This document shows, one piece after another, positions 14,855 to 48,890 of a stretch of DNA of 52,239 nt. Below the pieces are notes generated by a model. The model made no database searches. It was not told where the DNA came from and saw only the letters and a list, made by a program, of their open reading frames with translations. This stretch comes from a virus. Where the stretch lies: positions 1-52,239 of the IMG/VR virus record IMGVR_UViG_3300009158_000066; one strand, written 5' to 3'. Position 1 is the first letter of the stretch. Every line of letters begins with the position of its first letter. A program made the position numbers and the translations under genes.

Positions 14855-15787
14855 ATGCAAAAAGCTTTATGTTACGATGATGTATTCCTAATGCCGCGAG
14901 AGTGTAAGCTTGCATCTCGCAAAGAAGCTGTTGTGTCAAGACAGCTTGGTAGCAACGTTTTTAAACTACCAGTAGTACCTGCAAATATGGTATCTACAAT
15001 TAACTATAACTGGGCAAAGCAACTCGATCAACAAGGTTATTTTTATGTTATGCATCGATTCAACAACACTACCGTTGATTTTGTTGATTATGCAGAACAG
15101 CAAAATTTTAATATTGTAAGTATTAGTACAGGGGTTTCTCAAGAGAGTGCTACTGAGATCAACAGCCTTCAAGGTAAAAAAGTTGACTACGTCACTATTG
15201 ATGTGGCTCACGGTCACAGTCGTGCTGTCAGCAAACAGATAGAGCTTATTAAAAGAGTACTACCAAATGCGTATGTAATTGCTGGTAACGTCGCTACATC
15301 TGAGGGCGCTCAATACCTTGAAGATAATGGTGCAGATGCAGTAAAAGTTGGTATTGGTTCGGGTGTTATATGTACAACAAAACTACAAACCGGTTTTCAT
15401 ATACCTATGTTTACATGTATACAAGACTGTGTTAGTGCTTTAAAGCGTTGTAGTGTAATAGCGGATGGAGGTGTAAGATACCCCGGTGATATAACTAAAG
15501 CGCTTGTTGCAGGAGCTGATATGGTTATGGCAGGCGGTATATTTGCTGGTTGTAGTGATTCGCCTGCAGGTGTAGTAGATGGTAAAAAGGTTTATTACGG
15601 CTCCACTAGCTTGGCTGCCAAGCAAAAAAACGACCATATAGAAGGTCGTACTATATCAATTGATGTGGAGGTAGATTTACAAACGCGTTTGCATGAGATT
15701 ACTCAGGCTCTACAGAGTTCAGTTAGTTATGCAGGTGGTTATAGTTTGTGTGCTCTTAGCGGTGTAGAATTTAAAATAAAAGCTTGA
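14855..15787 (+). CDS. guaC: IMP dehydrogenase/GMP reductase family enzyme, probably GMP reductase
   Basis: A single (beta/alpha)8 barrel of 310 residues without the CBS pair found in most IMP dehydrogenases. The catalytic loop is GIGSGVICTTKLQTG with nucleophile C173. VIADGGVRYPGDITKAL and MVMAGGIFAG form the phosphate-binding region, and YYGSTS with a later HIEG follow. The TTK-x-x-TG form of the loop favours GMP reductase (GMP + NADPH to IMP + NH3) over IMP dehydrogenase. The usual GPGS is GIGSG here, a deviation at the proline. It may adjust purine pools in infected cells; a link with deazaguanine synthesis, which consumes GTP, is speculative. Confidence 0.82.
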   Translation: MQKALCYDDVFLMPRECKLASRKEAVVSRQLGSNVFKLPVVPANMVSTINYNWAKQLDQQGYFYVMHRFNNTTVDFVDYAEQQNFNIVSISTGVSQESATEINSLQGKKVDYVTIDVAHGHSRAVSKQIELIKRVLPNAYVIAGNVATSEGAQYLEDNGADAVKVGIGSGVICTTKLQTGFHIPMFTCIQDCVSALKRCSVIADGGVRYPGDITKALVAGADMVMAGGIFAGCSDSPAGVVDGKKVYYGSTSLAAKQKNDHIEGRTISIDVEVDLQTRLHEITQALQSSVSYAGGYSLCALSGVEFKIKA

Positions 15788-21077: not shown

Positions 21078-21695
21078 TTAGCTATAGATTAAACTACCAT
21101 CTTGTTCAGTAAAAAAAGCACCATCTGACTTGAGATACAACTTTATCATCTCACAGCGAAGATCAGGTGGTCCGTTTAGTGTTATAACAGCAGGACAATT
21201 GTCTAAAGGAAAGAATATATCCTTACCTCTTTCATATGTACCTACAACAGCGCTAAAAATATTATCGATTTCATCAATATACGCTTCGTCAATCTCTCTG
21301 TTTTCTTTTTCTTCTAATTTAATTTCTCTACTTCTTGGTACATAAAAAATAATATCATATTTTGATATTACATCGCGTATCTTGTATTTTGTAGTTATTA
21401 CAAAATCATCAGTGACCTTCTTATTAGCATGCAACCACAACGTATGTACAGCATTGTCTATAACACATCTATCTAATACTGTATTAGGTGTAGCTGTATT
21501 AATTTCTTCTATTAAAGCATCTAGAATAATAGATTGAGACTCTTTAGTACCTTGTTTATTAATATCTAGACCTTTCTCTAAAATTAAGTCTCTGTAAGTT
21601 TTTTCTGACTTCTTAAAATTAGGCCAATTTTTAATAAACTGTTCAATTAATGTAGTCTTACCACTACATGCACTACCCATAAAAGCTATTTTCAT
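21078..21695 (-). CDS. P-loop nucleotide kinase-like ATPase (NadR/AAA_28 type)
   Basis: 205 residues. The Walker A motif is at the N-terminus: GSACSGKTT (G7-T15). TVLDRCVIDNAVHTLWLH matches the D-R-x-x-x-D motif of AAA_28 and thymidylate-kinase-like enzymes, and IIFYVP follows. The enzyme is probably a small-molecule or nucleotide kinase. A second protein of the same design lies at 40546-41076. Both paralogues adjoin a 7-deazaguanine gene (here QueE, 20 bases upstream), so a role with a modified nucleotide is possible though unproven. Confidence 0.78.
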   Translation of the reverse strand: MKIAFMGSACSGKTTLIEQFIKNWPNFKKSEKTYRDLILEKGLDINKQGTKESQSIILDALIEEINTATPNTVLDRCVIDNAVHTLWLHANKKVTDDFVITTKYKIRDVISKYDIIFYVPRSREIKLEEKENREIDEAYIDEIDNIFSAVVGTYERGKDIFFPLDNCPAVITLNGPPDLRCEMIKLYLKSDGAFFTEQDGSLIYS

Positions 21696-21714: not shown

Positions 21715-22533
21715 CTACACACCAGTACAACTACCCCATGCAGATATATGCAAACGTTGTAGACCTCTAATTCCATATTTTTTAGACATCTCTAAGATAA
21801 AATTTGTACGCTCGTGAAAGTCTTCCTGCTTATCCAAGCCAGGCATCATACAAACACTCTTGATAGTTATATCAAACGGTTCAATATAACTTGCAAACAC
21901 TTCTTTTATATCATCTTCTGTACTTACTACAAACTTAAAACTATGGTTCTTATGAGTCTTAATAATCTGAATAGCTTCAGGGTTGATTCTCATCTCTTTA
22001 GACATACCGCTATTATCTAATTTAGCAGAACAGTTTATTTGATCTAGTCTATTCAATAATGCATCGTCAATACGTATTGTACCGTTTGTCTCAATTTCAT
22101 TAAATGTATTACCTTCTGGGTCAAACCACTCAAGAAACTCTACAATAGCTTTTTGATGCTTGGGTATTGTAGGTTCACCACCAGTCCATATCAAATGAAC
22201 CAACCCATTCTTAACGTTCTCTAAGATGCCTAAAGAAACCCAATCATCAACAAGATATTGAAACGGCTTGTAATTACCCTTGACCCATACAGGTGCACTA
22301 TCACACGTCCATGTAGCCTTACCTTCACGCTGAAGGGCTCCAATCAGATTACCACCAGCAACATATTCTTCAGTACTCTTCATCTCTTTTGTAAGAGATA
22401 TAATCTCTTGTGCAAGTAAACCGCAGCGAAGATTGCAGGATTTTAACCTTATAAAGTAAGCAGGTATACCTGTTGATATACCTTCACCTTGAACACTATA
22501 AAAACTCTCAGATATCTCTAGATGATCTTTCAT
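21715..22533 (-). CDS. queE: 7-carboxy-7-deazaguanine synthase (radical SAM)
   Basis: 272 residues. Begins with the typical EISESFYSVQGEG and IPAYFIRLKSCNLRC segments; TGGEPTIPKHQ and FNEIETNGT match QueE motifs for SAM and substrate. QueE turns CPH4 into 7-carboxy-7-deazaguanine, the common precursor of queuosine and deazaguanine DNA bases. The cluster cysteines are unusual: C33 and C37 are followed not by a nearby third cysteine but by C77 in TWTCDSAPVW, about 40 residues later. The gene is in the minus-strand run, directly upstream of the P-loop kinase. FolE2, QueF and DpdA are encoded elsewhere in the window. Confidence 0.93.
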   Translation of the reverse strand: MKDHLEISESFYSVQGEGISTGIPAYFIRLKSCNLRCGLLAQEIISLTKEMKSTEEYVAGGNLIGALQREGKATWTCDSAPVWVKGNYKPFQYLVDDWVSLGILENVKNGLVHLIWTGGEPTIPKHQKAIVEFLEWFDPEGNTFNEIETNGTIRIDDALLNRLDQINCSAKLDNSGMSKEMRINPEAIQIIKTHKNHSFKFVVSTEDDIKEVFASYIEPFDITIKSVCMMPGLDKQEDFHERTNFILEMSKKYGIRGLQRLHISAWGSCTGV

Positions 22534-34457: not shown

Positions 34458-34463
34458 AGCTCG

Positions 34464-34469
34464 TATAAT
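34464..34469 (+). promoter_or_regulatory. Possible -10 element, leaderless start for gp43
   Basis: TATAAT 6 bases before the polymerase ATG at 34476, the same -10 to start spacing as at 10752 and 38935. No good -35 is present, so weak on its own. Confidence 0.35.
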
Positions 34470-34475
34470 ATATGC

Positions 34476-37028
34476 ATGTATCGAAACGCATTTTACGATA
34501 ATAAAGAAGGAACAATAAGACTTCGAACTTGGACAGAAGATGGTAAGCGTATTGATACAGACGTGCCGTTTAGTCCGTTTTTGTATACAGAATCAGCAAC
34601 ACCTGCTGACGCAACTAGTATTTTTCGTACTCACTTAAAGCGTAGAGTTTTTAAGAATAACATGGAGCGTAGTAAATTTGTAAAAGAAACTTCTACGAGC
34701 CGTTTGTTCGGTAATATGTCTTGCGAGCAGCAGTTTTTACTTGAAGCGTTTAAAGAACAGGTAGGTGGTAAAGACTTTAGTAAATACCCATTAAAGATAT
34801 ATTCGTTCGATATTGAAACGTACTCCCCTAATGAGTTTCCAATACCTGAGTTAGCTAAAGACCCTGTAATACTAATTACAATACATAATAATCTAACTGA
34901 TGAAATTTTTAGCTGGGGTGTTGAAAAAGAATATAAACCTAAGAATGAACACGTAAAGTATTATTGCTGTCGTACAGAGTTTGAGATGTTTGAAAAGTTT
35001 ATGAATTTCTGGAAGATAGACCCTCCAGATATTTTAGTAGGGTGGAACTCTGAACGATTTGATATTCCATATATTATAAATAGAGCTCGTGGGTTGCTGG
35101 GTGATGAATTTATAAATCAACTTTCACCTGTTGGAAAATTATACTATAAACCTATTATGGATAATTTTGGTAGAAATACAGGAAAATGGATTATATATGG
35201 TTTGAGTTGTCTTGACTATATGGAGATATATAGAGCGTATGCAAAAGGTGAACGTGAATCTTATTCTCTTAACTATATCGGTGAGTATGAATTAAAGGAA
35301 GGTAAATTAGCAATCAATGCTACAAATCTCTCTAACCTTGCTAATGAAGATTGGGAAAATTTTGTAGACTACAATATTCAAGATGTACAGCTTCTTGTAA
35401 AACTAGAAGCAAAATTAAACTATCTTCGAATTGTACGCCTACTTGCGTATAAGGGTTGCACTAACTTTGAAGCAGCATTAGGTAAGATTGCTATTGTAAC
35501 AGGTGCAATGTATCTTCAGGCATACAAGCAGGGGTATGTTATACCCACCTTTAAAAATGAAGAGATTAGAGATACACTCGTTGGTGGTTATGTTAGAGAG
35601 CCAGAACGCGGTCTCAAAAAAAGTATAGTAAGTTATGACGTTAACTCACTATACCCAAACACAATTATAACTTTAAACATATCTGCAGAAACAAAGTTAG
35701 GTAAAATTGTGATTGGTGAATATGGTGTAGACGACAAACTGACAATTAGATTAGTAAACGGTAAGATACATGAGTTAACAGAAAAACAGTTTAAAGCTTT
35801 TATTAAAAAAGAAAAGATCTCAGTATCAAAAGCGGGGGTATTATATTCTCAAAAATATAAAGGTGTATGTCCGAATCTAATTGACACTCTTTATACTGAA
35901 CGTGTTGAAGCTCAAAAACAAAAGTTAACTCTTGAAAAGAAGAAAAAGTTAAATGAAGAAGAAAAAGCTACTGTAGAATATCTTGACACTCTACAGTATA
36001 CGATTAAGATTCTACTCAATTCAATTTATGGTACTTTTGCAAACAAATATAGTGCGTTTATGGATATTGACAACGCGTCGTCAATCACAAAAACAGGTCA
36101 AGCGGTAGCGAAAGAAGGAGCTAAGATACTAGACCAATTTATTCAAAAAACATATGGTGTAGAGTCTTCTTGTGTTATTGCAGGGGATACAGACAGTGTA
36201 TACATTACTATACAGCCAATTTTAGATAAATTAGAACTGCCGCTAGCTGTAGATAATTTAATAACAAAAAAAGTACATACAATTGTTGATGAAATTACAG
36301 AGGTAGTAAATAGGGAAATTAATAGTTGGGCTGGTACAGAATTAAATTCAAGCGATTCACGTTTTGTTTTCAAGAGAGAGGTAATTGCAGATGTAGGTAC
36401 ATTTTTGCAGAAAAAAAGATATATAATTCGTATCTTAGATAAGGAAGGGGTAGCAGTTGAAGGTGGTAAATTTAAGTATGTAGGTGTTGAGATAGCCAGA
36501 AGCACTATGCCTAAAAAAGTTAAAGAGATTGTTAAAGAAGTTTTAGAAAACGCTCTCTTGACTAACGACATTAAAGGTACCAATGACATTTATCGTCATG
36601 CATACGACACATTTATCTCATTACCGCTTGCAGAAGTAGCTTTTAGAAGTAGTATTCAGAATTACAATAAATACGCTGAAGGTGCTACCTTAGATAAATT
36701 TAACAAAGGTACACCATGTCACGTGAAAGCTAGTATAGCGTTTAATCTACTTTTAGAGAAGTTTAAATTGTCTGGTAAGTATGAAAAAATACAGTCAGGT
36801 CAAAAAGTAAAGTACTTCTACACAGCCAACAACCCCTATAGACTTGACGCTATTGCTTTTGTAACAGATTACCCAAAAGAATTTGAAAAGGTCAAGATTG
36901 ACTATGAGAAAATGTTTTTAAAAATTGCAGCTCCTCCGGTAGAGCGTTTATATGAAGCTTTAGATTGGAGACTACCTCAAATTGGTAAAGAAGTACAAAC
37001 TGATTTATTTGATCTATTCTGTATATAG
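34476..37028 (+). CDS. gp43: Family B DNA polymerase, T4 gp43-like
   Basis: 850 residues (T4: 898). Exonuclease motifs: FDIETY (D112, E114), VGWNSERFDIPYI and YNIQDVQLL. Polymerase motifs: YDVNSLYPNT (D388), LLNSIYGTFANKY and AGDTDSVY (D571, D573). The C-terminus QTDLFDLFCI is a PIP-like sliding-clamp binding peptide fitting the gp45 homologue at 48152. It is a complete proofreading replicase with no inteins or introns. It lies between the GDP-fucose genes and a glycosyltransferase rather than next to clamp-loader genes as in T4. Confidence 0.97.
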   Translation: MYRNAFYDNKEGTIRLRTWTEDGKRIDTDVPFSPFLYTESATPADATSIFRTHLKRRVFKNNMERSKFVKETSTSRLFGNMSCEQQFLLEAFKEQVGGKDFSKYPLKIYSFDIETYSPNEFPIPELAKDPVILITIHNNLTDEIFSWGVEKEYKPKNEHVKYYCCRTEFEMFEKFMNFWKIDPPDILVGWNSERFDIPYIINRARGLLGDEFINQLSPVGKLYYKPIMDNFGRNTGKWIIYGLSCLDYMEIYRAYAKGERESYSLNYIGEYELKEGKLAINATNLSNLANEDWENFVDYNIQDVQLLVKLEAKLNYLRIVRLLAYKGCTNFEAALGKIAIVTGAMYLQAYKQGYVIPTFKNEEIRDTLVGGYVREPERGLKKSIVSYDVNSLYPNTIITLNISAETKLGKIVIGEYGVDDKLTIRLVNGKIHELTEKQFKAFIKKEKISVSKAGVLYSQKYKGVCPNLIDTLYTERVEAQKQKLTLEKKKKLNEEEKATVEYLDTLQYTIKILLNSIYGTFANKYSAFMDIDNASSITKTGQAVAKEGAKILDQFIQKTYGVESSCVIAGDTDSVYITIQPILDKLELPLAVDNLITKKVHTIVDEITEVVNREINSWAGTELNSSDSRFVFKREVIADVGTFLQKKRYIIRILDKEGVAVEGGKFKYVGVEIARSTMPKKVKEIVKEVLENALLTNDIKGTNDIYRHAYDTFISLPLAEVAFRSSIQNYNKYAEGATLDKFNKGTPCHVKASIAFNLLLEKFKLSGKYEKIQSGQKVKYFYTANNPYRLDAIAFVTDYPKEFEKVKIDYEKMFLKIAAPPVERLYEALDWRLPQIGKEVQTDLFDLFCI

Positions 37029-37032
37029 ATCA

Positions 37033-37055
37033 AATAAATATCTTTTATAAGATAT
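37033..37055 (+). promoter_or_regulatory. Late-type -10 element and hairpin at a start codon
   Basis: AATAAATA (37033-37040) overlaps the 5-prime arm of a 7-bp stem, ATATCTT (37038-37044) with AAGATAT (37049-37055), whose 3-prime arm contains the A and T of the next ATG at 37054. Late transcripts would begin in the loop. Confidence 0.45.
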
Positions 37056-38730
37056 GCAAGACCTTTTACCGGAATATAAAACTGAATCAGGTTACATTTA
37101 CTTTACAATAACAAATGCAGGGTACATACAATTTGTTCTTAATTTCTGTAAAAGAAATAAAGAATTAAACACACTTAAAAAATTAATAATAGTTTGCACA
37201 GATAAAGAATCCTACAACCAACTAACCTACCTCGTTGATTGTATATGTGTATATTTTCCGTGCTTTATATCTAAAACTCTTGAATCCTGGCATACAACAA
37301 ACTATAAAGATATTGTTTTTAAGAAGCTAGATATCACAAAATGGGTTCTTCAATGGGCACAGTTAAACGATGTTAAACGTGTCGTGTACCTTGATACTGA
37401 TATGTGGTTGTATAAAGATTTTGTACCTGATCTTGAAAATTTTGTAGATAAAACATACGATATCGTAGATGTTATAATGCAAGATGGTGAAAATTATGCT
37501 GATGAACCTTTTGAACCTACATACACAATAACACCGACAACAAGTACGCTTGAGGTTAAGAAATACTGCACACGTCTATGTACAGGTCTAATGATACTAA
37601 AACCTAATAATACTGTTACAGATATGCTTGACTATAAGAGCAATAGACTTGTAGATTGGTCTAAGTACGTAGGTAATCAACCATTTTTAAATGACACTAT
37701 TGATGCTTATCAAATTACGGCAATAGCTCTACCAAGACGTCTAGCAATAAATGGTAGCATATTCAACACTAGCGATATAGCAAGTAGTAAGGATAAACTT
37801 GAACTCGAACTAAATAAACTGAAGTGTAGTGATACATGGTTATTACATTACACATATTCTATTGGTGTTGCAAAAATAGAAATGATGTCTTTATTAGGTC
37901 ACTGGGCTCTGTCTACTGCTGAAACTCAAGCTTTTTTAGGTAAAAGTACAGGTCGTCCAGATCTATATGTAAGATGCCCTGACGGATTTGCAAATCAGCT
38001 GAGAATTCTACTTGCAGGAGTTTATCTAATGCAAACTAATAGTATAAACAGCTTTACAATTGAATGGGTGTTAAACAATCATAATAATGTAAATTTTTTA
38101 GATTATTTTGAAAAACCACCAGGTGTTGTTATAAAAGATATTGATAGTAGTATTGACGATGAAAAAATTATTAAAACTTGTAGTTTTGAATACTTAATTA
38201 ACAAATACGCTAAACGAGGCACGCTATGGAATACAGCACTTAGTGTAGCTTTAAAGTATTTAATTATAAAAAGAGATGTACAACTAGAAGTTGATAGTTT
38301 CGTTAAACAAAACAAGATCAATGAATCCCTTGGTGTTCACGCAAGACGTACATGCAAGACAGCTCTACTAGAAGGTGTACACGATAGAAGTTTACCTCTT
38401 ACAAACACTGAAATTCTATCCATCTGTAGATCGTTTACAAAAGTGTATGTCGCAACAGATAATAAAGAAACACAAGACTACTTCATCAAGGAATTAAACG
38501 AATCCGTTGTAGTATACAAGCCTATCATACATGGAGCGGAGCATTTTCCGTATGATGAATATAGTAGAGATGGTGTACAGAGATACACAGACGGTAAGCA
38601 CAATATAATGGACTTCTTATCACTAAAACAGTGTAGAACTTTTTTAGGTAGCAATGAAAGTGCTTATTCGTTACTATTATTTCATTGGAGAAAAAATAGT
38701 AACGACTACCATGTCTTTGGTAAACTATAA
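37054..38730 (+). CDS. Bifunctional glycosyltransferase: GT-A domain fused to fucosyltransferase-like domain
   Basis: 558 residues. The N-terminal domain (about 1-285) has VVYLDTDMWLYKD with DTD at 114-116, the metal-binding DxD of GT-A enzymes, and a later HYTYSIG segment. The C-terminal domain (about 300-558) has CPDGFANQLRILLAG, GVHARRTCKT (HARR 429-432) and FLGSNESAYSLL, which resemble O-fucosyl/alpha-fucosyltransferase motifs (HxRR). With GDP-fucose genes just upstream, the enzyme probably adds fucose and a second sugar to an unknown acceptor. Its start lies in a hairpin with a late-type element, so it may be expressed late. Confidence 0.78.
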   Translation: MQDLLPEYKTESGYIYFTITNAGYIQFVLNFCKRNKELNTLKKLIIVCTDKESYNQLTYLVDCICVYFPCFISKTLESWHTTNYKDIVFKKLDITKWVLQWAQLNDVKRVVYLDTDMWLYKDFVPDLENFVDKTYDIVDVIMQDGENYADEPFEPTYTITPTTSTLEVKKYCTRLCTGLMILKPNNTVTDMLDYKSNRLVDWSKYVGNQPFLNDTIDAYQITAIALPRRLAINGSIFNTSDIASSKDKLELELNKLKCSDTWLLHYTYSIGVAKIEMMSLLGHWALSTAETQAFLGKSTGRPDLYVRCPDGFANQLRILLAGVYLMQTNSINSFTIEWVLNNHNNVNFLDYFEKPPGVVIKDIDSSIDDEKIIKTCSFEYLINKYAKRGTLWNTALSVALKYLIIKRDVQLEVDSFVKQNKINESLGVHARRTCKTALLEGVHDRSLPLTNTEILSICRSFTKVYVATDNKETQDYFIKELNESVVVYKPIIHGAEHFPYDEYSRDGVQRYTDGKHNIMDFLSLKQCRTFLGSNESAYSLLLFHWRKNSNDYHVFGKL

Positions 38731-38898
38731 AAGTAAAAAAGTGTCAACGGTGTATGTTTCAAGCTGAGCTATTGTACATCTATATTTTTCTTCAGATGTT
38801 ATTAAGAGTTTAGTCTTTGCTTTACACTCATCTTTTGTCTCAGAAATTGTACTCCAGAGATATTTACAATCTATTTTAGATACATACATTATTTTCAT
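38725..38898 (-). CDS. Possible small minus-strand gene, 57 aa
   Basis: An ATG at 38898 opens 57 codons ending at 38725, overlapping the glycosyltransferase end by 6 bases. The protein starts MKIMYVSKIDCKYLW and is polar with three cysteines. No family or ribosome-binding site is seen. It fills the otherwise unexplained gap of 204 bases and is divergent from dpdA. Could be a chance frame; an RNA or regulatory leader is the alternative. Confidence 0.4.
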   Translation of the reverse strand: MKIMYVSKIDCKYLWSTISETKDECKAKTKLLITSEEKYRCTIAQLETYTVDTFLLL

Positions 38899-38927
38899 TT
38901 GAAAAAAAATTAAAAGTGAGGTATAAT
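38899..38927 (+). promoter_or_regulatory. Strong sigma70-like promoter for dpdA cluster
   Basis: TTGAAA (38899-38904), 17 bases, TATAAT (38922-38927), 7 bases to ATG 38935. This is the best promoter match in the window and predicts a transcript beginning at or one base before the start codon. Confidence 0.7.
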
Positions 38928-38934
38928 TCTACTT

Positions 38935-39789
38935 ATGCTAGTAAGTCACGAAACACCTGTAGACATGTTGGATGTATCAAGATACTACAATGACTATGAT
39001 TATTGTCTTGTTCATCTTTTACCGGAAAACGAAAAATACAAAGATTTTTATATTGAATCTGTTAAGTTAGGTAGACATGTTCTACTTGACAATTCAATTT
39101 TTGAATTAGGAGAAGCATATGATAACACAAAATTTGCGCAGTGGGTTGTAGATCTAACCCCGACTGAGTACATTGTACCAGATGTTCTTGAAGAGACTCA
39201 TCAAACAATTAGTTCTTTTGTAAGCTTTACAGGGACATATAAAGACTTACCAGGCAAAAAGATTGGCGTTGTACAAGGAAAGACTTATGAAGAAATAGTT
39301 GAGTGTTATAAATTTCTTGCAGACAAAGTAGATAAAATTGCTATAAGTTTTGACTATAGCTTTTATCTCAATAGTAAAGAAGAAAACAACAATTATAAAA
39401 AATTTATTGTATCAGAATTAAATATTAGAGAAGATCTTATTGATAATAAATGGTGCGATTACGCTATTGGTAGAATTCAGCTTTTAAATAGATTGATAGG
39501 GGATGGTATTTTTGTTGAGAAACCTCATCACTTATTAGGGTGTAGTGTACCTTGGGAATTTAAAGCTATTAATAATACACTTGATAGCTTTTATTTAAAG
39601 TGTATTGAAACTATAGACACATCAAACCCTATAGTAGCAGGTATATTAGAGCATCCGTATAACATTAACTACGGTCTTTGTGAGAAGTGGTCTTATAAGT
39701 TAGTAGACTTTATTAATCATGTTCCGCATATCAAGCAAAAACAAATAATACAAAACAACGTATGGATGTTTAAGAATTTCTGTCGTTAA
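38935..39789 (+). CDS. dpdA: DpdA-like DNA-guanine transglycosylase (TGT-like)
   Basis: 284 residues. Features match phage DpdA proteins: LLDNSIFELGE (D52), IVPDVLEETHQT (D83), GVVQGKTYEE (Q114, G115), PHHLLGCSVPWE (198-208) and TIDTSNPI (D228), parallel to the two catalytic aspartates and the base pocket of TGT enzymes. DpdA exchanges guanine in DNA for a 7-deazaguanine base after replication. It heads a cluster with a PurN-like formyltransferase, a P-loop kinase and QueF, and has a strong promoter. QueE and FolE2 occur elsewhere in the window. Call is by motif resemblance; subfamily not determined. Confidence 0.82.
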   Translation: MLVSHETPVDMLDVSRYYNDYDYCLVHLLPENEKYKDFYIESVKLGRHVLLDNSIFELGEAYDNTKFAQWVVDLTPTEYIVPDVLEETHQTISSFVSFTGTYKDLPGKKIGVVQGKTYEEIVECYKFLADKVDKIAISFDYSFYLNSKEENNNYKKFIVSELNIREDLIDNKWCDYAIGRIQLLNRLIGDGIFVEKPHHLLGCSVPWEFKAINNTLDSFYLKCIETIDTSNPIVAGILEHPYNINYGLCEKWSYKLVDFINHVPHIKQKQIIQNNVWMFKNFCR

Positions 39790-39793
39790 TTTT

Positions 39794-40330
39794 ATGAAAA
39801 AATGGGTAGCTTTATTCTCACAAACAGGTACAGAGATCTTTAATCTAATTGAAGATCTTGCTATTAAACCTGATAGAATTGTTATTAATAATTCTGATCT
39901 AACAAATGTTAATAGTAAATTGTTAGATAAACATTTTGATGTATTGTGGGTTGTACCTAATAAGCCAAGCATTGAGGAGTATGATACCTTTCTTGATGAA
40001 AGTACAATCGTAACAATGCACGGTTGGTTGAGAATTGTGCCGCCTATAATTTGTGAGAGATATAAGATATATAATCTACACCCAGCTCCATTAACTCGTT
40101 ACCCATTTCTCAAAGGTAAAGATCCGCAAAAAAGATGTATAGAACAAAATCTAGAGTACGGTGGTAACACGTTACATGTGTGTTCGAGTGAGTTAGATTC
40201 AGGCAAAATTATATATGAGGATGAGGTTAGAATAAGAGGCTACAGTGTTAATGTAGCATATGATGCAATATATGCATCAGCATTTAAACTGTGGAAGAAA
40301 TTTCTAATAAATGAATTTAAAAGAAGTTAA
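39794..40330 (+). CDS. dpdN: PurN-like formyltransferase, candidate DpdN
   Basis: 178 residues. NLHPAPLTRYPFLKG holds N94 and H96, and SSELDSGKI holds D135, the Asn-His-Asp catalytic triad of 10-formyl-THF formyltransferases; TMHGWLRIVPP precedes it. It lies 4 bases after dpdA and before queF, so formylation of preQ1 (DpdN-type, giving fdPreQ1) fits better than purine synthesis, which would need PurN in isolation. A published phage family DpdN has this role. The assignment here is by context and family level only. Confidence 0.72.
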   Translation: MKKWVALFSQTGTEIFNLIEDLAIKPDRIVINNSDLTNVNSKLLDKHFDVLWVVPNKPSIEEYDTFLDESTIVTMHGWLRIVPPIICERYKIYNLHPAPLTRYPFLKGKDPQKRCIEQNLEYGGNTLHVCSSELDSGKIIYEDEVRIRGYSVNVAYDAIYASAFKLWKKFLINEFKRS

Positions 40331-40541
40331 AAGTTCAATACAGTTAGAGTTGCTTTATAAAATCTTGTCATGTATTTACAATGATGAACTAGAAACTTTA
40401 TTTGCGACAGAAAGTTATAGAGATATACATACCTTAGTCAAAAGTATGATTATTTACGACATGATATTTTACACTGCAGATAATAGATTGTTATTGACTT
40501 CTATAGGTAGAAACGTATTATTCAATTGCCCGTTATTTTAA
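40311..40541 (+). CDS. Small hypothetical protein in the dpd cluster, 76 aa
   Basis: MNLKEVKSSIQLELLYKIL opens a helical protein with a later YRDIHTLVKSMIIYDMIFY and a C-terminal GRNVLFNCPLF. Small size and helix-rich pattern could suit a winged-helix or adaptor fold, but no family is recognised. It overlaps the formyltransferase end by 20 bases and is 4 bases before the kinase gene, so it is part of the modification operon. Confidence 0.58.
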   Translation: MNLKEVKSSIQLELLYKILSCIYNDELETLFATESYRDIHTLVKSMIIYDMIFYTADNRLLLTSIGRNVLFNCPLF

Positions 40542-40545
40542 ATTT

Positions 40546-41076
40546 ATGAAAATTGCACTTTCAGGTCTACACAGTCAAGGCAAGACAACGTTACTCAATA
40601 TCTTTGATAACAATCAAATTTTTAAAGATTATTATAAAGTGCCAAGCCCTACAAGAATACTTCAAAGTGAAGGTTTTGTAATAAATGAAAGCGGGGATGA
40701 AGTTACTCAAACACTCATAATGATGCAACATTATAAGAACGCTGTAAAGTGCGGTACAAAAGCTTTTTTTGATCGTTGTACTTTAGATGGCTTAGCGTAT
40801 AGTCTCTTTTTTAAAGAGAAATTAAAAGATAAAAAAGTGTATAGTTTAATTGTAGATTTATTTAAATTAACAATTCAAAGCTATGATGTTATATTTTATA
40901 TTGAACCAGAACTTGAACTACAGAATGACAATACACGATCTCTTGATCGTGTATTTTTTGACAATGTAAAACAAAACTTTGAAGACGTTATTGCAGAGTA
41001 CAAAATTGATGTTAAAAGAGTTAAAGGTACAATACAAGAACGTGTAGATTTTATACAGAAATTTATTAATATTTAA
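40546..41076 (+). CDS. P-loop nucleotide kinase-like protein (AAA_28 type)
   Basis: 176 residues. Walker A GLHSQGKTT (residues 7-15), then AFFDRCTLDGLAYSLFF with the D-R-x-x-x-D motif and VIFYIEPE, as in the protein at 21078-21695. Both look like NadR/thymidylate-kinase-like small-molecule kinases. It sits between the formyltransferase and queF with 2-4 base gaps. Phosphorylation of a 7-deazaguanine nucleoside or base precursor is a testable idea; it could also serve a general dNMP or cofactor role. Confidence 0.78.
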   Translation: MKIALSGLHSQGKTTLLNIFDNNQIFKDYYKVPSPTRILQSEGFVINESGDEVTQTLIMMQHYKNAVKCGTKAFFDRCTLDGLAYSLFFKEKLKDKKVYSLIVDLFKLTIQSYDVIFYIEPELELQNDNTRSLDRVFFDNVKQNFEDVIAEYKIDVKRVKGTIQERVDFIQKFINI

Positions 41077-41078
41077 AT

Positions 41079-41987
41079 ATGAGTGATATACTAGACAATT
41101 CAGCTATTTCAAAAGTTCTAGGTCAGAGAGTATCTGCACCTGCTCGTTATGATAAATCTATTTTAGTCCGAGAACCTCGACAAAGTAATAGAACGTATTT
41201 AGGTATACGTGATAGTGCTTTACCGTTTGTTGGTAAAGATCTTTGGAATAACTGGGAGATTAGTGCGCTTACAACTAACGGTATGCCGATAACAGGTATT
41301 GCACAAATAGTATACGACTGTAACTCAAAGTATATTGTTGAATCAAAATCTGCTAAGTTGTATTTTAATTCTTTCAATATGACTCAATTTGGAGATTCAA
41401 GTACGGAGGTAATTAAAAATATTGAAGAGTGTGCTTCAAGAGATTTATCTGAACTACTTGAATCACCCGTATCTGTAAAGATATTTTCAGCATCAGCTCA
41501 TAATTCACGAGATACTGATTTGAAGGAATATTCAAAGTATATAACACTTGAAGACCAAGAAGGTGTAAATGAAATAAAATTTAACACATATAGTGAGAAT
41601 TCAGGTTTGCTTGTTATTAACAAGAGTAATACAACTCAAGAACAATACTTTAGAAGTACACTACTACGTTCAAATTGCCGTGTAACTAATCAACCCGATC
41701 ACGGAGATGTATATATCTACCTGAAATCAAAAAATAAAATTACACCAAAATCCCTTATTCAATATATAGTGAGTTTTAGAAATGAGTGTCATTTTCACGA
41801 AGAGATCTGTGAGGCTATTTATAAACGTATTCTTGATCTATGTGAACCTGAAGAGTTGAGAGTGTCATGCTATTATGTACGTCGTGGAAGTTTAGACATC
41901 AACCCTGTACGAGCTACTCATGAACATTTACTTGAAGATTATCTATTAAATACTAATATACGTTTCTGTAAGACACCTAGACAATAA
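41079..41987 (+). CDS. queF: NADPH-dependent 7-cyano-7-deazaguanine reductase
   Basis: 302 residues, the long (E. coli-like) QueF. The N-terminal half has DLWNNWEISALT and YIVESKSAKLYFNSFN (E88). The C-terminal half has LLRSNCRVTNQPDHGD with nucleophile C200 and D207, and ECHFHEEICEAIY, then RRGSLDINPVRA, all diagnostic. It reduces preQ0 to preQ1 (four electrons). In a cluster with DpdA this suggests a preQ1-based DNA base. It starts 2 bases after the kinase gene. Confidence 0.95.
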   Translation: MSDILDNSAISKVLGQRVSAPARYDKSILVREPRQSNRTYLGIRDSALPFVGKDLWNNWEISALTTNGMPITGIAQIVYDCNSKYIVESKSAKLYFNSFNMTQFGDSSTEVIKNIEECASRDLSELLESPVSVKIFSASAHNSRDTDLKEYSKYITLEDQEGVNEIKFNTYSENSGLLVINKSNTTQEQYFRSTLLRSNCRVTNQPDHGDVYIYLKSKNKITPKSLIQYIVSFRNECHFHEEICEAIYKRILDLCEPEELRVSCYYVRRGSLDINPVRATHEHLLEDYLLNTNIRFCKTPRQ

Positions 41988-41992
41988 AAATT

Positions 41993-42373
41993 ATGAAGAA
42001 AAACGAAAAAGACAATAAAGAAACCTTGACAGTGTTTCTTGATACAATTGGTCGAACTATTCTTGGCGCTCTTGAAGCGGAAGATAGTAACTCAATTACT
42101 ATCAAGAACCCTGCAGTCGTAAACATTACTCCCAACCCTACAAACGGTCAGATATCTCTACAGTTACTACCTCTATTTTTTAGAGAGTTTCTAGCAGATA
42201 GTACCGAACCTACCAGGTGGGTGTATCAGAAGAGTTTAATAACTCGCTGTCAAGATATTACTCTTGACTTCAAGTTTCTAGCACAATACGGCCAAATTTT
42301 TGCACCAATTCAAGCTCAACAAGCAGAGCCTCCCAAGGGAGATGGTAATGTGATCAAATTATTTGATGAATAA
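41993..42373 (+). CDS. Sm-like hypothetical phage protein, 126 aa
   Basis: Alternating hydrophobic pattern (TVFLDTIGRTILGALEAED, then SITIKNPAVVNI and ISLQLLPLFFREFLAD) resembles conserved small beta-barrel phage proteins with an Sm-like character, though I cannot name a family. The C-terminal NVIKLFDE looks like a short peptide motif. It is the last gene of the dpd operon, 5 bases after queF, and is followed by a terminator. Function unknown. Confidence 0.65.
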   Translation: MKKNEKDNKETLTVFLDTIGRTILGALEAEDSNSITIKNPAVVNITPNPTNGQISLQLLPLFFREFLADSTEPTRWVYQKSLITRCQDITLDFKFLAQYGQIFAPIQAQQAEPPKGDGNVIKLFDE

Positions 42374-42400
42374 TTAAAACACAACACTAACAAACTCATT

Positions 42401-42434
42401 AAAACCTACACAATACAAAGTGTAGGTTTTTTTT
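42401..42434 (+). terminator. Intrinsic terminator after dpd cluster
   Basis: An 11-bp stem AAAACCTACAC (42401-42411) with GTGTAGGTTTT (42420-42430), an 8-base loop and a T run to 42434. It separates the dpd cluster from uvsX. Confidence 0.92.
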
Positions 42435-42460
42435 GATTTAACGAGAATGTAATATATCAT
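42433..42460 (+). promoter_or_regulatory. Promoter for uvsX, probably leaderless transcript
   Basis: TTGATT (42433-42438), 16 bases, TATCAT (42455-42460), 7 bases to ATG 42468. It follows directly on the terminator T run. Confidence 0.5.
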
Positions 42461-42467
42461 ACTACAT

Positions 42468-43565
42468 ATGGCTAAAGACTCTCTTAATCATCTTAAAGAT
42501 ATTTTCAAATCTGTCGACGATCTTAACCCTGACGCTGCTACTCTCGATGAAAGTACTCTTTCGTCTGCTGACGAATGGATTGATACTGGGTGTTATGCAT
42601 TAAACGCTATCATTTCAGGTTCTTTATATAAAGGTATACCTGTAGGGCGTATTGCAGGGTTTGCAGGACCATCGCAAGCTGGCAAATCACTGATAATGAA
42701 TCGCATCATGGCTAATGCTCAGAAGATAGGCTATGTACCTGTAATTTGGGATTCGGAAGTTGCAGTAGATAAGCGCAGCGCTGAAGGTGCAGGTATGGAC
42801 ACAAAACGGGTTAAGTATTACCCAGTAGAAACTATTGAAGATTGTAGAAATCAAATGTGTAAATTCTTTGATAATATTATTGCAGCAAATAATCCAGAGT
42901 TAAAATTTATCGTTGCAATTGATTCTCTCGGTAACTTAGCAAGTGCGAAGGAAATAAGAGATGCATCTGCAGGTAAGGATGCAAGTGATGTTGGTCAACG
43001 TGCAAAAGCAATCAAATCAATGATGCGTACTTTAACGTATAAAGCTGCAAAAGCAAAAGTACCAGTGTTGTTTAGTAATCATATATATGATAGTATGGAG
43101 ATGTTTCCTTCACTCGTTAAGACACAAAGTGGTGGGAAAGGACCTATATATCTTGCATCAGTATTAGTGCAGTTGAGTACTCGTAACGAGAAGTCTACTG
43201 AAAACCCAAATGAAGCGTCAGTAGCTATTTCAAATAATGTTTCAGGTGTAACACTTTCAGCAATGACTGTTAAAAATCGTTTTGTACCAAACTTTTTAAA
43301 GACTGAATTATATTTAAATTTCAAAACCGGTCTTGATAAATACTCAGGGCTATTTGAAATAGCAACAGCGTATGGAGTTTTAGTGAAAGCAGGTAATAGA
43401 TATACATTTGGTGAAGAGAATTTAGGTTATCGTAAAGATATTGAAAAAAATATTGAATGTTGGGAGAAGATAATGCCAAAACTTGAAGAAGTTCTGCAAG
43501 AGCAATTATGTTATAGCAATGATAAGACAGCTGAGTTGCAAAAAGAAGTTGACGATATAGCATAA
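42468..43565 (+). CDS. uvsX: Recombinase UvsX (RecA family)
   Basis: 365 residues (T4 UvsX: 391). Walker A GPSQAGKS (67-74), then VIWDSEVAVDKRSAEG, FIVAIDSLGNL (Walker B) and the VGQRAKAIKSMMRTL region plus VLFSNHIYDSMEMFP. It forms filaments on ssDNA, with UvsY and gp32 as partners, for strand exchange and recombination-dependent replication. It is the first gene after a terminator with its own promoter; gp41 helicase starts 5 bases later. Confidence 0.95.
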   Translation: MAKDSLNHLKDIFKSVDDLNPDAATLDESTLSSADEWIDTGCYALNAIISGSLYKGIPVGRIAGFAGPSQAGKSLIMNRIMANAQKIGYVPVIWDSEVAVDKRSAEGAGMDTKRVKYYPVETIEDCRNQMCKFFDNIIAANNPELKFIVAIDSLGNLASAKEIRDASAGKDASDVGQRAKAIKSMMRTLTYKAAKAKVPVLFSNHIYDSMEMFPSLVKTQSGGKGPIYLASVLVQLSTRNEKSTENPNEASVAISNNVSGVTLSAMTVKNRFVPNFLKTELYLNFKTGLDKYSGLFEIATAYGVLVKAGNRYTFGEENLGYRKDIEKNIECWEKIMPKLEEVLQEQLCYSNDKTAELQKEVDDIA

Positions 43566-43570
43566 TATCT

Positions 43571-44920
43571 ATGCAGAATACAAACATAGCAACAACGCTT
43601 GACCTTGACTTCTACGAAGGTGTAATTTTGCTAAATAGTCTCTTAAGTACAGACTATCTAGCAACAATAATAGATTTTGTTAAACCTGATTATTTTAATG
43701 ATAAAGACATTAGGGTAGTGTTTAGTACTATATCTAATTTCTTTCAAGAAAGAGGTGTAATACCAACACATACAGAAATAAAATCAAGACTCCTAACAGA
43801 AGAAGATAAAAAAGCATTTAATAATACAGCTACAAAGTTAAAACAACTCGATAAAACTTTTGAAAAGCAAGAACTTCTAATAAACACCGAGCGCTTTCTT
43901 AAAGAAAGATGTCTACAGAAAGCTATTATTGAAACTGCAGAAAAATTTTCAAAAGGTAAGATAGAACCTCAAGAAATTTTACAAGAGTTTGAAAAAGCTA
44001 GTGCTATCTCATTAAGTGAGAGTATGGGGCATTGGTATTTTGAAGATATTGATAAACATATCAAAGATCTCGTCACAACCTACAACCCACTACCTTTAGG
44101 TTGGAGATTTTTAGACGAACGTTTAGAGGGCGGACTTTATCCAAAAACGTTAACTTGTTTTTTAGGTCAAGTTAACGTCGGTAAGAGTATATTCTTGGGA
44201 AATATAGCTACAAATATAGTTATGAGAAATCATAACGTGTTGTTGATTTCTCTTGAGATGTCTGAGTTTATGTATGCTAAGCGAATAAGCTCTCAGATTA
44301 CACAGATACCACATAATGAATTAAAAGTATACACTGATGAGATTAAAGAGTCTGTAGAACATCTAAAGCGACAAATAGAAAGTAAATTGGTAATTAAAGA
44401 GTACCCACCAAAATCAATTACATGTAGACATATTGACGCATACATGACTAAACTAACACAACGCGGGTTTAAACCTGCTGTTTTAGTTATTGATTATATT
44501 AATTTATTAAAACCGGTTTCAAAGAACTTAAACTCATATGAGAGTGTTAAAGAAGTTGCTGAACAGTTAAGAGCTCTATCGTTTAAATACAATATACCGA
44601 TTGTAACAGCTTCTCAGCTTAAGAGAGATGCGTTCAATACATCCAACCCAGGTATGGAGGGGGTATCAGAAAGTATTGGTCTTGCAGCAACTTGTGATGT
44701 TATGTGCTCTATATGGCAGGAAGAAGAAGATAAAGAATTAGGTCTAGTTCATTTAGGTATGATCAAGAACCGATTTGGGCCAAATTATGGTACATGCGCT
44801 TTTAAAATTAAATATGACACACTCACTCTAACAGAGACAAGTGTTGATTATTTTGCAGCTGATAATGTAGAAAACGCTATTGAAGACGCATCAACTACAT
44901 TAGATAAATTGAGTGTTTAA
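43571..44920 (+). CDS. gp41: Replicative DNA helicase gp41-like (DnaB family)
   Basis: 449 residues. The N-terminal helical domain (1-150) precedes PLGWRFLDERLEGGLYPK, Walker A GQVNVGKS (199-206), then LLISLEMSEFMYAKR and VLVIDYINLLKP (Walker B) and a C-terminal GLVHLGMIKNRFG. It unwinds DNA 5-prime to 3-prime at the fork and interacts with primase gp61. It lies directly after uvsX, as in many T4-like phages. Confidence 0.95.
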   Translation: MQNTNIATTLDLDFYEGVILLNSLLSTDYLATIIDFVKPDYFNDKDIRVVFSTISNFFQERGVIPTHTEIKSRLLTEEDKKAFNNTATKLKQLDKTFEKQELLINTERFLKERCLQKAIIETAEKFSKGKIEPQEILQEFEKASAISLSESMGHWYFEDIDKHIKDLVTTYNPLPLGWRFLDERLEGGLYPKTLTCFLGQVNVGKSIFLGNIATNIVMRNHNVLLISLEMSEFMYAKRISSQITQIPHNELKVYTDEIKESVEHLKRQIESKLVIKEYPPKSITCRHIDAYMTKLTQRGFKPAVLVIDYINLLKPVSKNLNSYESVKEVAEQLRALSFKYNIPIVTASQLKRDAFNTSNPGMEGVSESIGLAATCDVMCSIWQEEEDKELGLVHLGMIKNRFGPNYGTCAFKIKYDTLTLTETSVDYFAADNVENAIEDASTTLDKLSV

Positions 44921-44968
44921 GATATTATAAAATAACACACTATACTTTAAGTTGAACTAAAAGTACAA

Positions 44969-44993
44969 ATCGCCTAATTAACAATTAGGCGAT
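44969..44993 (+). promoter_or_regulatory. Hairpin containing a start codon
   Basis: A perfect 11-bp stem, ATCGCCTAATT (44969-44979) with AATTAGGCGAT (44983-44993), and a 3-base loop. The ATG at 44992 begins in its 3-prime arm. No U run follows, so a translational role is more likely than termination. Confidence 0.65.
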
Positions 44994-45309
44994 GCTTAAT
45001 AGTAAAAATATTACAAATATTATACATAATAGTAACCCTGTTGAAACAACTGCTGGCAAGGAGTTTATAACAGGTTTACTAAAAGTTGGAGCGTTTCTGT
45101 CAATAGTTAGCGGCAAGAAGATAAATTCTTCTACTTTATTTACTATGATCCTTGAAAATAGCGACATTCGCTATATATTTGTGTCATTAACAGGTGCTTC
45201 AGACGAAAGAGAAGCACTATTGGGTATGCTATATATGTACCCTGCTCTTTTAAAGAGTAAAAATGTTAAAAAGACGTTTCAAAGATCCCTTAAAAATGAC
45301 AGAATTTGA
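44992..45309 (+). CDS. Hypothetical protein, 105 aa
   Basis: No family recognised. The sequence seems helical and globular (GKEFITGLLKVGAFLSIV, then SDIRYIFVSLTGASDEREALLGMLY) with a basic end. It lies between gp41 and the gp59-like gene, overlapping the latter by 47 bases (14 if the ATG at 45296 is used there), so a role in replication is possible. The ATG is within a stable hairpin. Confidence 0.62.
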   Translation: MLNSKNITNIIHNSNPVETTAGKEFITGLLKVGAFLSIVSGKKINSSTLFTMILENSDIRYIFVSLTGASDEREALLGMLYMYPALLKSKNVKKTFQRSLKNDRI

Positions 45310-45973
45310 AAAGCAAATATACAACAGTTATCTTGCAATAACCCGACAGATAAAAAACAAACCGTTCAAAAAGAGAGCAAACTTTGAAAATTTTGAACAA
45401 ACACCAGAATATCTTTTAGTAAAAAGACTCTGTATTCTCTTTAGCAAACATAAAGAGATTGATATAAAAACTTACTTTGAAGCCCCATATAAAATATACC
45501 AAGATGCTTCATTTTTCGATTTAGGCTATTACTCAAGCCCTCGAGCTGTAAAAGCATACACTTTATATCGAAAAATATTAAACTCTAATAATCCTGATGA
45601 TTGTGTTGATGAAGTTAAAAAATCATTAGAGTTTTTAACTAAATTCTGTATTGATTCAAATATACAGCTTTTAGATTATACAAAACATTCTAGTGGTAGT
45701 ATACCTACATGGGTAGAACATCTTAAAAGAAATCAAATACACCCTTACACCTTAATGGAGTTTACAGGTATATATAAAACACTCAATACACTTACCCCTG
45801 AAGAACAAGAAATACTGCTTGGGTCTTTTGCTTCAGACTACTTTAAGTTTAGAGACAAGTATAATAACAGCAACACCCTCAAGCCGTTACTGCAAAAAGC
45901 TTTCTTTAAACTTCAGAATTTAATTTTTAAACGCTTGCAGATAAAGAAGGAGAATATACAATATAAAGAATAA
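45263..45973 (+). CDS. gp59: gp59-like helicase loader candidate
   Basis: 236 residues from ATG 45263, or 225 from 45296. It stands directly upstream of gp32, the position of gene 59 in T4. Helical composition, a central YLLVKRLCILFSKHKEIDI and a C-terminal SIPTWVEHLKRNQIHPYTLMEF resemble the gp59 layout (ALIFISN and YIFKLLQSNIISFETFILL segments in T4), though identity is low. gp59 loads gp41 on gp32-covered ssDNA. Alternative: an unrelated helical protein placed there by chance. Confidence 0.58.
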   Translation: MLKRRFKDPLKMTEFEKQIYNSYLAITRQIKNKPFKKRANFENFEQTPEYLLVKRLCILFSKHKEIDIKTYFEAPYKIYQDASFFDLGYYSSPRAVKAYTLYRKILNSNNPDDCVDEVKKSLEFLTKFCIDSNIQLLDYTKHSSGSIPTWVEHLKRNQIHPYTLMEFTGIYKTLNTLTPEEQEILLGSFASDYFKFRDKYNNSNTLKPLLQKAFFKLQNLIFKRLQIKKENIQYKE

Positions 45974-45976
45974 ATT

Positions 45977-46891
45977 ATGAAATTTACTAACTCAATGTTT
46001 AACGATATTAAGACAGCAATGACTTCTAAAGGTGAATCAGCTTTTAAAGATGTCTTAAAATTTGAAGCAGGCAAGACGTATAACCTACGCCTTGTACCAA
46101 ACATCAACCAGCCAAAGAAAAGCATCTTTCATTATTATCATCATAGCTGGAATAGCTTGGCTAGTACTAAGTTTCTATCTACTGTATGCCCTACTACGTT
46201 TGGTGAATCATGCCCTATCTGCAGTCACGCTATCAAGACTTTTCGTAACGGTTCAAACGAAGAAAAAGAAAAGAACAAGCTTATTTCTAGAAAAGAAAAT
46301 TGGCTTGCTAATGTGTATGTAGTAGCAGACCCTTCTAACGCTGAGAATGTAGGTAAGGTCAAGATGCTTAGGTATGGTCGCGAATTGGCAAAGATTATCA
46401 ACGAAGCAATTGACGGTGAAGATTCTGAAGATTTTGGAGCCAAGATCTTTGATGTAGTGAATGGTTGTACCTTGCGCGTAAAGTGTGAAGCTCGTTCTGG
46501 AGCTCCGCAGAAGAAGCAGTTTGTTACGTACGGTTCGAGTAAGTTCGTAGCAGCATCAACGCTTGATGATATTGATGCTGGTCGTCTAGCTGAAATTCAC
46601 GCAAGTATCTTTGATCTTGAAGCTGTCAACAAGCTTGCTACCTCCCCTGAATTGCAGAGGATGTTAGACCAACATTATTTCTGCGTTGAAGATGCAGTGT
46701 CTTCAGAAGATGAAATTGTTGATGATGAAATACCTAGCAAGAAACCTGAACTAACTAAAAAGAAAGAAGTATCTAAACCAAAAACTCAGATTGATGATAT
46801 CTTCGAAGGAGTAAAAGAAGCTAAGAGTAAGAGTGAAGACGAAGACGATTTTTATGACGATGAATTGAAAGATATTCTCAGCAAAATGTAA
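45977..46891 (+). CDS. gp32: Single-stranded DNA-binding protein gp32
   Basis: 304 residues (T4: 301). The basic N-terminus is followed by a core with a zinc site: His55/56, C71, C79 and C82 (HHSWNS, CPTTFGESCPIC), corresponding to the T4 H-C-C-C site. The C-terminal tail is acidic (SEDEDDFYDDELKDILSKM), used for contacts with gp59 and other replication proteins. It coordinates replication, recombination and repair. Clear gene order gp59-gp32 supports the assignment. Confidence 0.96.
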   Translation: MKFTNSMFNDIKTAMTSKGESAFKDVLKFEAGKTYNLRLVPNINQPKKSIFHYYHHSWNSLASTKFLSTVCPTTFGESCPICSHAIKTFRNGSNEEKEKNKLISRKENWLANVYVVADPSNAENVGKVKMLRYGRELAKIINEAIDGEDSEDFGAKIFDVVNGCTLRVKCEARSGAPQKKQFVTYGSSKFVAASTLDDIDAGRLAEIHASIFDLEAVNKLATSPELQRMLDQHYFCVEDAVSSEDEIVDDEIPSKKPELTKKKEVSKPKTQIDDIFEGVKEAKSKSEDEDDFYDDELKDILSKM

Positions 46892-46934
46892 CCTTTAACT
46901 TTATTAATTTTAGTAACTAACTTATATAAATTAT

Positions 46935-47768
46935 ATGCCACGTAAAAAAACAAACGACGACATACCAGACATTCAAAATACAATTGAGGGATTTCCAAAG
47001 AAATATATACCAAAAGTAGGTACTCGAGACGCCACGGTGCCTATCAAGATCATTCGTAAGGATGGAACTGTAAATGAAGGTAGTGGTAAGGTTAGTATGT
47101 ATACTGATCTTACACCTGAAGTAAAGGGTACGAATATGAGTCGGTATCGTATTCTTATTGAAGAGATTCTTCAGAAAGATGGTTATTATATTCATGAAGT
47201 AATTCCGAGTCTCCTTACTGAATGTAAGGAGCGTCTTAAGGCTGATAATGCTTATGTGAAGATTAACTTTGACTACTTTCTTAAGAAGAAAGCGCCAGTA
47301 TCAGGTGTAGAGTCTCATATGGATTATAGAGGCTGTATGGAAGGTAAATTGATCAATGGAGAGCAGAAGCTATATCTAAAGGTTAGTGTGCTGTATGCAT
47401 CGTTGTGCCCTTGTAGTAAAGAGATTAGTGATTATGGAGCTCATAATCAGCGAAGTGTTGCAGATGTAGTAGTAGAACTTGATGAGTCAAAAGGTGTTAT
47501 GTGGATTGAGGAGTTGATTGATATTGTAGAGCGTTGCAGTTCTGCACCTATCATTAACGCATTGAAGAGAATCGATGAAGCATATCAAACAGAACTAATG
47601 TATGAAAACCCTCGCTTTGTTGAAGATATGGTTCGCTTGATTGGTCAAGAGCTTGATATTGAGCTTGATAACCGTATCAAAGATTATAGTGTTGTAGTAA
47701 ATCACTATGAAAGTATTCATAGTTCAACTGCATGTGCAATTATTAACGCTGGTAGAACATTAACGTAA
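46935..47768 (+). CDS. folE2: GTP cyclohydrolase IB
   Basis: 277 residues. Diagnostic FolE2 motifs: VESHMDYRG, SLCPCSKEISDYGAHNQRS (metal-site cysteine and histidine) and ENPRFVEDMVR. It converts GTP to 7,8-dihydroneopterin triphosphate, the first step of both folate and 7-deazaguanine synthesis. With QueE, QueF and DpdA in the same genome it most likely feeds DNA modification; QueD and QueC are absent from the window. It is placed between gp32 and a small gene before the clamp gene. The zinc-independent type could work when zinc is scarce. Confidence 0.95.
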   Translation: MPRKKTNDDIPDIQNTIEGFPKKYIPKVGTRDATVPIKIIRKDGTVNEGSGKVSMYTDLTPEVKGTNMSRYRILIEEILQKDGYYIHEVIPSLLTECKERLKADNAYVKINFDYFLKKKAPVSGVESHMDYRGCMEGKLINGEQKLYLKVSVLYASLCPCSKEISDYGAHNQRSVADVVVELDESKGVMWIEELIDIVERCSSAPIINALKRIDEAYQTELMYENPRFVEDMVRLIGQELDIELDNRIKDYSVVVNHYESIHSSTACAIINAGRTLT

Positions 47769-47772
47769 TATT

Positions 47773-48150: not shown

Positions 48151-48151
48151 A

Positions 48152-48886: not shown

Positions 48887-48890
48887 TATT

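Follow-up and report, generated by a model that had tools for sequence, protein, structure and literature searches.

A probable formyl-preQ1 DNA cassette in a T4-like viral contig and the P-loop kinase that accompanies its DpdA

The viral contig IMGVR_UViG_3300009158_000066 (52,239 bases, analysed whole and called the window here) was found to contain, on a single strand and in one tight operon, the genes of a small DpdA, a DpdN-like formyltransferase, a P-loop kinase and the reductase QueF (Table 1). As predicted from these genes, the cassette probably replaces guanine by 7-(formylamino)methyl-7-deazaguanine through a DpdA3-type pathway, with the kinase serving the DpdA step. Among its partners, this DpdA was found to keep the kinase most constantly, ahead of the formyltransferase. 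Flavobacterium phage vB_FspM_immuto_2-6A (NC_055915) and dozens of metagenomic phages, among which the cassette is common, were found to share these four genes and their order, and the window adds a further, divergent member to a known sort of formyl-preQ1 DNA cassette. Genes, folds, motifs and linkage were computed throughout. An earlier note, made from the letters of this DNA, had placed a DpdA-like transglycosylase, a PurN-like formyltransferase with an intact Asn-His-Asp triad, a P-loop kinase and QueF in one operon of a T4-like phage, had named FolE2 and QueE as precursor genes and QueD and QueC as missing, and these statements were borne out, gene coordinates included. Its prediction of formyl-preQ1 DNA is well founded as a deduction, because the enzyme set is found again, kept together and with its order unchanged, in immuto_2-6A and in 56 of the 87 viral loci described below; its claim about the promoter is weak. 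The constancy of the kinase, the second kinase paralog after queE and the GMP reductase had escaped the note.

Table 1. Positions of the cassette genes and of related features in the window
Feature	Position	Strand	Basis or remark
dpdA, small DNA-guanine-transglycosylase-type enzyme (DpdA3-like), 284 aa	38935..39789	+	TGT/DpdA fold, conserved motifs
dpdN-like formyltransferase, PurN fold, 178 aa	39794..40330	+	PF00551, triad
76-aa open reading frame inside the operon	40311..40541	+	similar-sized reading frame at the equivalent place in locus L027
P-loop nucleoside/nucleotide kinase, 176 aa	40546..41076	+	AAA_28
queF, bimodular preQ0 nitrile reductase, 302 aa	41079..41987	+	
126-aa open reading frame at the operon end	41993..42373	+	conserved before uvsX in T4-like relatives
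Terminator-like hairpin with T-run	42401..42430	+	
Sigma-70-like site TTGAAA-17-TATAAT	38899..38927	+	11/12 match; -10 box ends 8 nt before ATG
folE2, GTP cyclohydrolase, first step to preQ0	46935..47768	+	PF02649 229.6 bits; NF010200 224.9 over 215
queE, 7-carboxy-7-deazaguanine synthase	21715..22533	-	phrog_2076 (QueE-like) 143.8 bits
Another copy of the cassette kinase (paralog), immediately downstream of queE	21078..21695	-	AAA_28 30 bits
guaC-like GMP reductase	14855..15787	+	PF00478 201 bits

Viral loci were gathered by DpdA and formyltransferase searches, the kinase not being used as a query, and about 150 loci were obtained, each alignment search giving the best 80 of more than 560 matching stretches. 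Non-identical DpdA genes and 3 kb or more of downstream sequence were present in 87 of these loci, and the kinase was found to accompany DpdA in all of them, within 4 kb in 85 and further down the same cassette in two. The order dpdA-dpdN-kinase-queF was found in the 56 loci already named and dpdA-kinase-queF in 23, followed by the rarer orders dpdA-kinase (three), dpdA-dpdN-kinase (two) and dpdA-queF-kinase-dpdN (one). DpdN was gained or lost at least four times on the DpdA tree, and despite these repeated changes the kinase was kept in all 87 loci, with or without formyltransferase or QueF. The kinase is therefore tied to DpdA and not to formylation. Thymidylate kinase is the usual annotation of this gene, as it is in immuto_2-6A, and no other companion is as constant for the DpdA type that is linked to complete guanine replacement; this is the new point, and to our knowledge the published description of DpdN and DpdA3 does not hold the kinase as a constant partner.

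The kinase was found to match AAA_28 with 47.4 bits against a cut-off of 27, and its model was found to match the folds of thymidylate kinase (TMPK), deoxynucleoside kinase and the NadR kinase domain. The residues G12, K13, T15, R77, D81, D128, R131 and R166 were invariant among 57 members and comprise the Walker A motif, the DR motif and the C-terminal arginines. An ordinary T4-gp1-like deoxynucleoside monophosphate (dNMP) kinase, placed beside dpdA by descent only, is a very improbable account of this gene. Relatives of the kinase do occur in Streptomyces phages without an annotated dpdA in the stretch read, and a kinase exclusive to DpdA phages was rejected on the same ground, but the partnership was found in 11 of the 12 DpdA clusters at 50% identity and was kept across different gene orders. 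The twelfth cluster, that of the Cellulophaga phage phiST, was found with another kinase type. No kinase was seen in L180, a contig from a Clostridiales bin, where an upstream reading frame looked MazG-like by eye.

The DpdA of the window was found to match no Pfam or NCBIfam family, and among PHROGs it matched only groups of unknown function, phrog_19058 being the best. Its AlphaFold model, made from a 62-member alignment (pLDDT 95.5, pTM 0.92), was found to have three matches only in the PDB at E<=0.001, namely TGT 7apm, TGT 7ovo and 7ui4, the DNA preQ0 insertase DpdA. With E. coli Tgt the QG motif aligned at low score, as did the region that precedes D228, and low scores were also obtained for the DpdA3 profile against single Tgt, DpdA1 and DpdA2 sequences. 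The residues D52, D83 and D228 were invariant and Q114 nearly so among the 62 aligned members, and we take them to be the two catalytic aspartates and the guanine-binding Asp/Gln. The isoelectric point was tried as a sign of DNA binding and was uninformative, E. coli Tgt and DpdA1 being about as acidic as DpdA3.

The formyltransferase was found to match Formyl_trans_N (PF00551) with 38.3 bits against a cut-off of 26.1, and the triad Asn94-His96-Asp135 was invariant among 42 aligned members. DpdN was found together with dpdA, the kinase and queF in 57 of 60 DpdN loci, the other three lacking a member within the search range. This linkage argues against another reading, in which the phage would have dPreQ1 or some further derivative as its product and the PurN-like protein would formylate a different target, glycinamide ribonucleotide being an example. 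That reading would agree with the filing of a PHROG of phage PurN-like proteins as an auxiliary metabolic gene, and with the 23 loci of the order dpdA-kinase-queF, which would yield dPreQ1, but the formyltransferase scored far under the equivalog cut-off of PurN, the glycinamide ribonucleotide transformylase (36 vs 150.1 bits), and we hold the reading to be unlikely.

The QueF protein was found to contain both modules above the Pfam cut-offs (QueF_N 112 bits, QueF 72.5 bits) and to match the solved QueF 3bp1 at E 2e-40 with the catalytic motifs aligned; it stayed below the TIGR03138 equivalog cut-off (243.1 vs 293.45 bits, positions 5-267 of 275). It was found to contain ESKS at position 88, which is presumably the NADPH motif, followed by Cys200, Asp207 and FHE at 239-241, which we take to be catalytic. 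Nitrile reduction to preQ1, and not the amidotransferase activity of QueF-L, is indicated because this bimodular QueF holds Cys200, Asp207, the FHE residues and ESKS.

The proposed pathway would start with FolE2 and QueE, together with QueD and QueC encoded elsewhere in the genome, which would make preQ0, followed by its reduction to preQ1 by QueF. The small TGT-fold DpdA would exchange guanine for preQ1, probably at most or all G positions, and DpdN would use formyl-tetrahydrofolate to formylate the aminomethyl group, so that the DNA would hold 7-(formylamino)methyl-7-deazaguanine. The adjacent kinase would serve the DpdA step and not formylation, its substrate being a (deoxy)nucleoside or nucleotide of the guanine or 7-deazaguanine type. 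We infer the chemistry, the kinase substrate, how far replacement goes and whether formylation precedes or follows insertion.

Several points weigh against this pathway. The modified base of the window phage is a prediction from genes and folds. A profile search of PDB sequences with the DpdA gave only a sub-threshold 7ui4 (E 0.72), so that the fold search was needed, and the DpdA assignment is drawn from the modelled fold, motifs and context, with no significant sequence match to a solved DpdA. The acceptor of the formyltransferase is assigned from its context, because the PurN equivalog cut-off was missed. QueC and QueD were searched for in the 52-kb record and gave no match, FolE2, QueE and QueF being the genes of the preQ1 pathway found on it. 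Both missing genes were found in larger relatives, including a relative of 218 kb (G009), and since they are absent here and present there, the record is read as a fragment; their absence is most simply an effect of this.

The way in which the kinase would serve the DpdA step was read in two manners, to which about equal weight was given. The constant partnership suggests that DpdA3 swaps the base on a nucleotide and that the kinase then phosphorylates it, before DNA synthesis. This is a finer version of the pathway above, naming where the kinase acts: DpdA3 would act on dGMP (or dG) and move the deoxyribose(-phosphate) from guanine to preQ1, freeing guanine; the kinase would lift the 7-deaza nucleotide towards the triphosphate, which the phage polymerase would incorporate; dGTP hydrolases would supply dGMP and deplete dGTP; and a phosphoribosyltransferase and GMP reductase would remove the guanine. 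DpdA3 would then be, as a tentative proposal, a kinase-paired deoxyribose-5-phosphate transferase (dGMP + 7-deazaguanine base -> 7-deaza-dGMP + guanine) and not a DNA transglycosylase. In the other reading, which is quite possible, DpdA3 exchanges bases in DNA after replication, one guanine being freed per site, and salvage enzymes (phosphoribosyltransferase, kinase and GMP reductase) pull the freed guanine away and so drive the exchange to completion.

Exchange on nucleotides is favoured by the presence of the kinase in all 87 loci, through the changes in DpdN and with or without QueF, and by the other P-loop kinases found at remote DpdA relatives. Immediately upstream of dpdA, phiST and the Chryseobacterium phage MA9V-3 were found to encode a P-loop protein of the AAA_18 family, and the Bacillus BSTP phages (BSTP12) and Weizmannia phage Youna2 a thymidylate-kinase-like protein; the latter name comes from the annotation of BSTP8, no Pfam match being above cut-off. 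The kinase-like protein of Youna2 weakly matched the profile of the window-type kinase (E 1e-4), so that the kinases of remote DpdAs are not all unrelated to the window type. The Brevundimonas phage StAshley was found to contain a T4 gp1-type dNMP kinase about 6 kb from dpdA, beside FolE. The gene dpdA was found to abut the DNA polymerase gene in the Bacillus, Weizmannia and Brevundimonas phages, which also fits exchange before synthesis. No Walker A kinase was found among the tested neighbours of DpdA1 in phage 9g and DpdA2 in KVP40, two records that make a thin control.

Genes of the nucleotide pool, found in some of the cassettes, point the same way. In L019-L022 the domain dGTP_diPhyd_N (PF18909, a dATP/dGTP diphosphohydrolase domain) was found to lie between dpdN and the kinase; a gene of the MazG superfamily was found near dpdA in immuto_2-6A, L161 and phiST, a purine (xanthine/guanine-type) phosphoribosyltransferase near the cassette in immuto_2-6A, L181, L182, L023 and L024, and a GMP reductase in six representative loci besides the window record. 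The phosphoribosyltransferase and GMP reductase are explained by exchange in DNA as well. The dGTP hydrolases are not, as dGTP would be required for normal replication; the gene that stays constant is the kinase and not the phosphoribosyltransferase; and hosts already possess a guanylate kinase. Exchange in DNA is favoured in turn by the known DpdA and TGT enzymes, which act on polymers, and by the fold match 7ui4, which is a DNA enzyme. Against exchange on nucleotides, TGT-fold enzymes with known activity use RNA or DNA, the pool-emptying genes were found in a minority of loci, GMP reductase being present also in many other phages, and L180 shows no kinase. In the 2019 work of Crippen, infected Campylobacter hosts reportedly showed no dADG phosphates, and the 2023 work of Cui is said to have concluded that insertion is post-replicative; both stand against it.

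A precedent for exchange on nucleotides was found in the literature. With the phage enzyme DmtZ, dAMP gives up its deoxyribose phosphate to the Z base, and dATP/dGTP are hydrolysed by DUF5664 (PF18909) (PMC12884076). Hutinet 2019 left open that some phages might make modified dGTP and did not rule out undetected deoxyribosyltransferases (PMC6884629). Given the kinase, the GMP reductase and the dGTP hydrolases, this question can be put directly to purified enzymes. If true, exchange on nucleotides would be the TGT-fold counterpart of the DmtZ reaction, would explain how such phages can replace all their guanine and would open an enzymatic route to 7-deaza-dGTP analogues.

The known systems were found to share parts of the window cassette. 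The Z-DNA phages of the PurZ0 type (DmtZ, DutZ, DUF5664; PMC12884076) are alike in having a base-transfer enzyme and complete base replacement, but DmtZ is an NDT-fold enzyme that uses dAMP, whereas the window system has the TGT fold, guanine and a kinase; their pool enzyme PF18909 was found in some of the relatives and not in the window. The systems of DpdA1 (phage 9g, 317 aa) and DpdA2 (KVP40, 459 aa) are alike in containing preQ0 genes and a DpdA, and differ from the window cassette in the lack of a Walker A kinase among the neighbours tested. The closest isolate, immuto_2-6A, was found to be identical to the window by 42% in DpdA, 40% in the formyltransferase, 29% in the kinase and 43% in QueF. 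It contained FolE in place of FolE2, and its QueD and QueE lie nearby and its QueC about 15 kb away, whereas the window record lacks QueD and QueC; its cassette adds a phosphoribosyltransferase and a MazG-superfamily gene, whereas in the window a GMP reductase is present and queE has a second kinase beside it. The Campylobacter firehammervirus CP220 was found to contain a relative of DpdA (42%) and, after it, a kinase (33%) of the family seen in the window, but no formyltransferase or QueF beside them. CP220 is a dADG phage. The 2023 work of Cui is said to have described fdPreQ1, to have given DpdN its name and to have presented DpdA3 as a type with complete replacement, and this system is like the window in its TGT-type DpdA, QueF and PurN-type formyltransferase.

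Several variants of the cassette were found among the relatives. The dpdA-kinase-queF block without formyltransferase was found in many marine viral contigs (L060-L102), and it sits amid genes of the opposite strand in L060, L062 and L065; loci of this kind, judged from their genes, would yield dPreQ1 DNA. All four functions were found together in L024 (8116-10540) in shuffled order and with a short QueF type, which is a sign of independent assembly. A GMP reductase homolog was found between dpdN and the kinase in relatives such as L136, L145, L153 and L159, and a protein of about 111-118 aa in the same place in L017, L018 and others up to L166, its member in L128 having a weak match, below cut-off, to DUF1599 (nucleotide modification associated domain 1). 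CP220 (L011:8868-9899) was found to contain an HD-domain and P-loop (AAA_33) protein directly upstream of dpdA. The domains PF18909 and PRA-PH were rejected as general members of the cassette, each being above cut-off in one of 20 larger records, and a GMP reductase specific to DpdA phages was rejected likewise, the gene occurring in many other kinds of phage.

The gaps between the genes of the operon were 4, -20, 4 and 2 nt, counting the 76-aa reading frame. The 126-aa reading frame is probably not part of the pathway, and the hairpin that follows it is likely the end of the operon. The earlier note had called the promoter of the operon the strongest in the window. The scan covered positions 34000-52239, and within it the site before dpdA only equalled a minus-strand site at 44522 as the best; promoter-like sites were not in excess there (91 found vs 81.6 +/- 8.9 expected), and with its -10 box so close to the ATG the claim for this site is weak.

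The record was found to contain the T4-like markers gp32-like single-stranded-DNA-binding protein, UvsX-like recombinase, DNA polymerase, DnaB-like helicase, sliding clamp and T4-type terminase, and also both subunits of ribonucleotide reductase; tRNA genes were searched for in the window and none was found. The GMP reductase scored 310 bits with the NCBIfam GMP reductase model vs 169 with that of IMP dehydrogenase. The QueE was 61% identical to that of the 218-kb relative (G009/L173), which contained the gene order QueD-QueE-kinase. In the QueE of the window a long insert was found between the second and third cysteines (C33, C37, C77) of the presumed radical SAM motif. A glycosyltransferase-like gene (PF03407, 37054-38730) separates the DNA polymerase from dpdA in the window, and in L031 and L054 a polymerase-like reading frame was found to adjoin dpdA without this gene.

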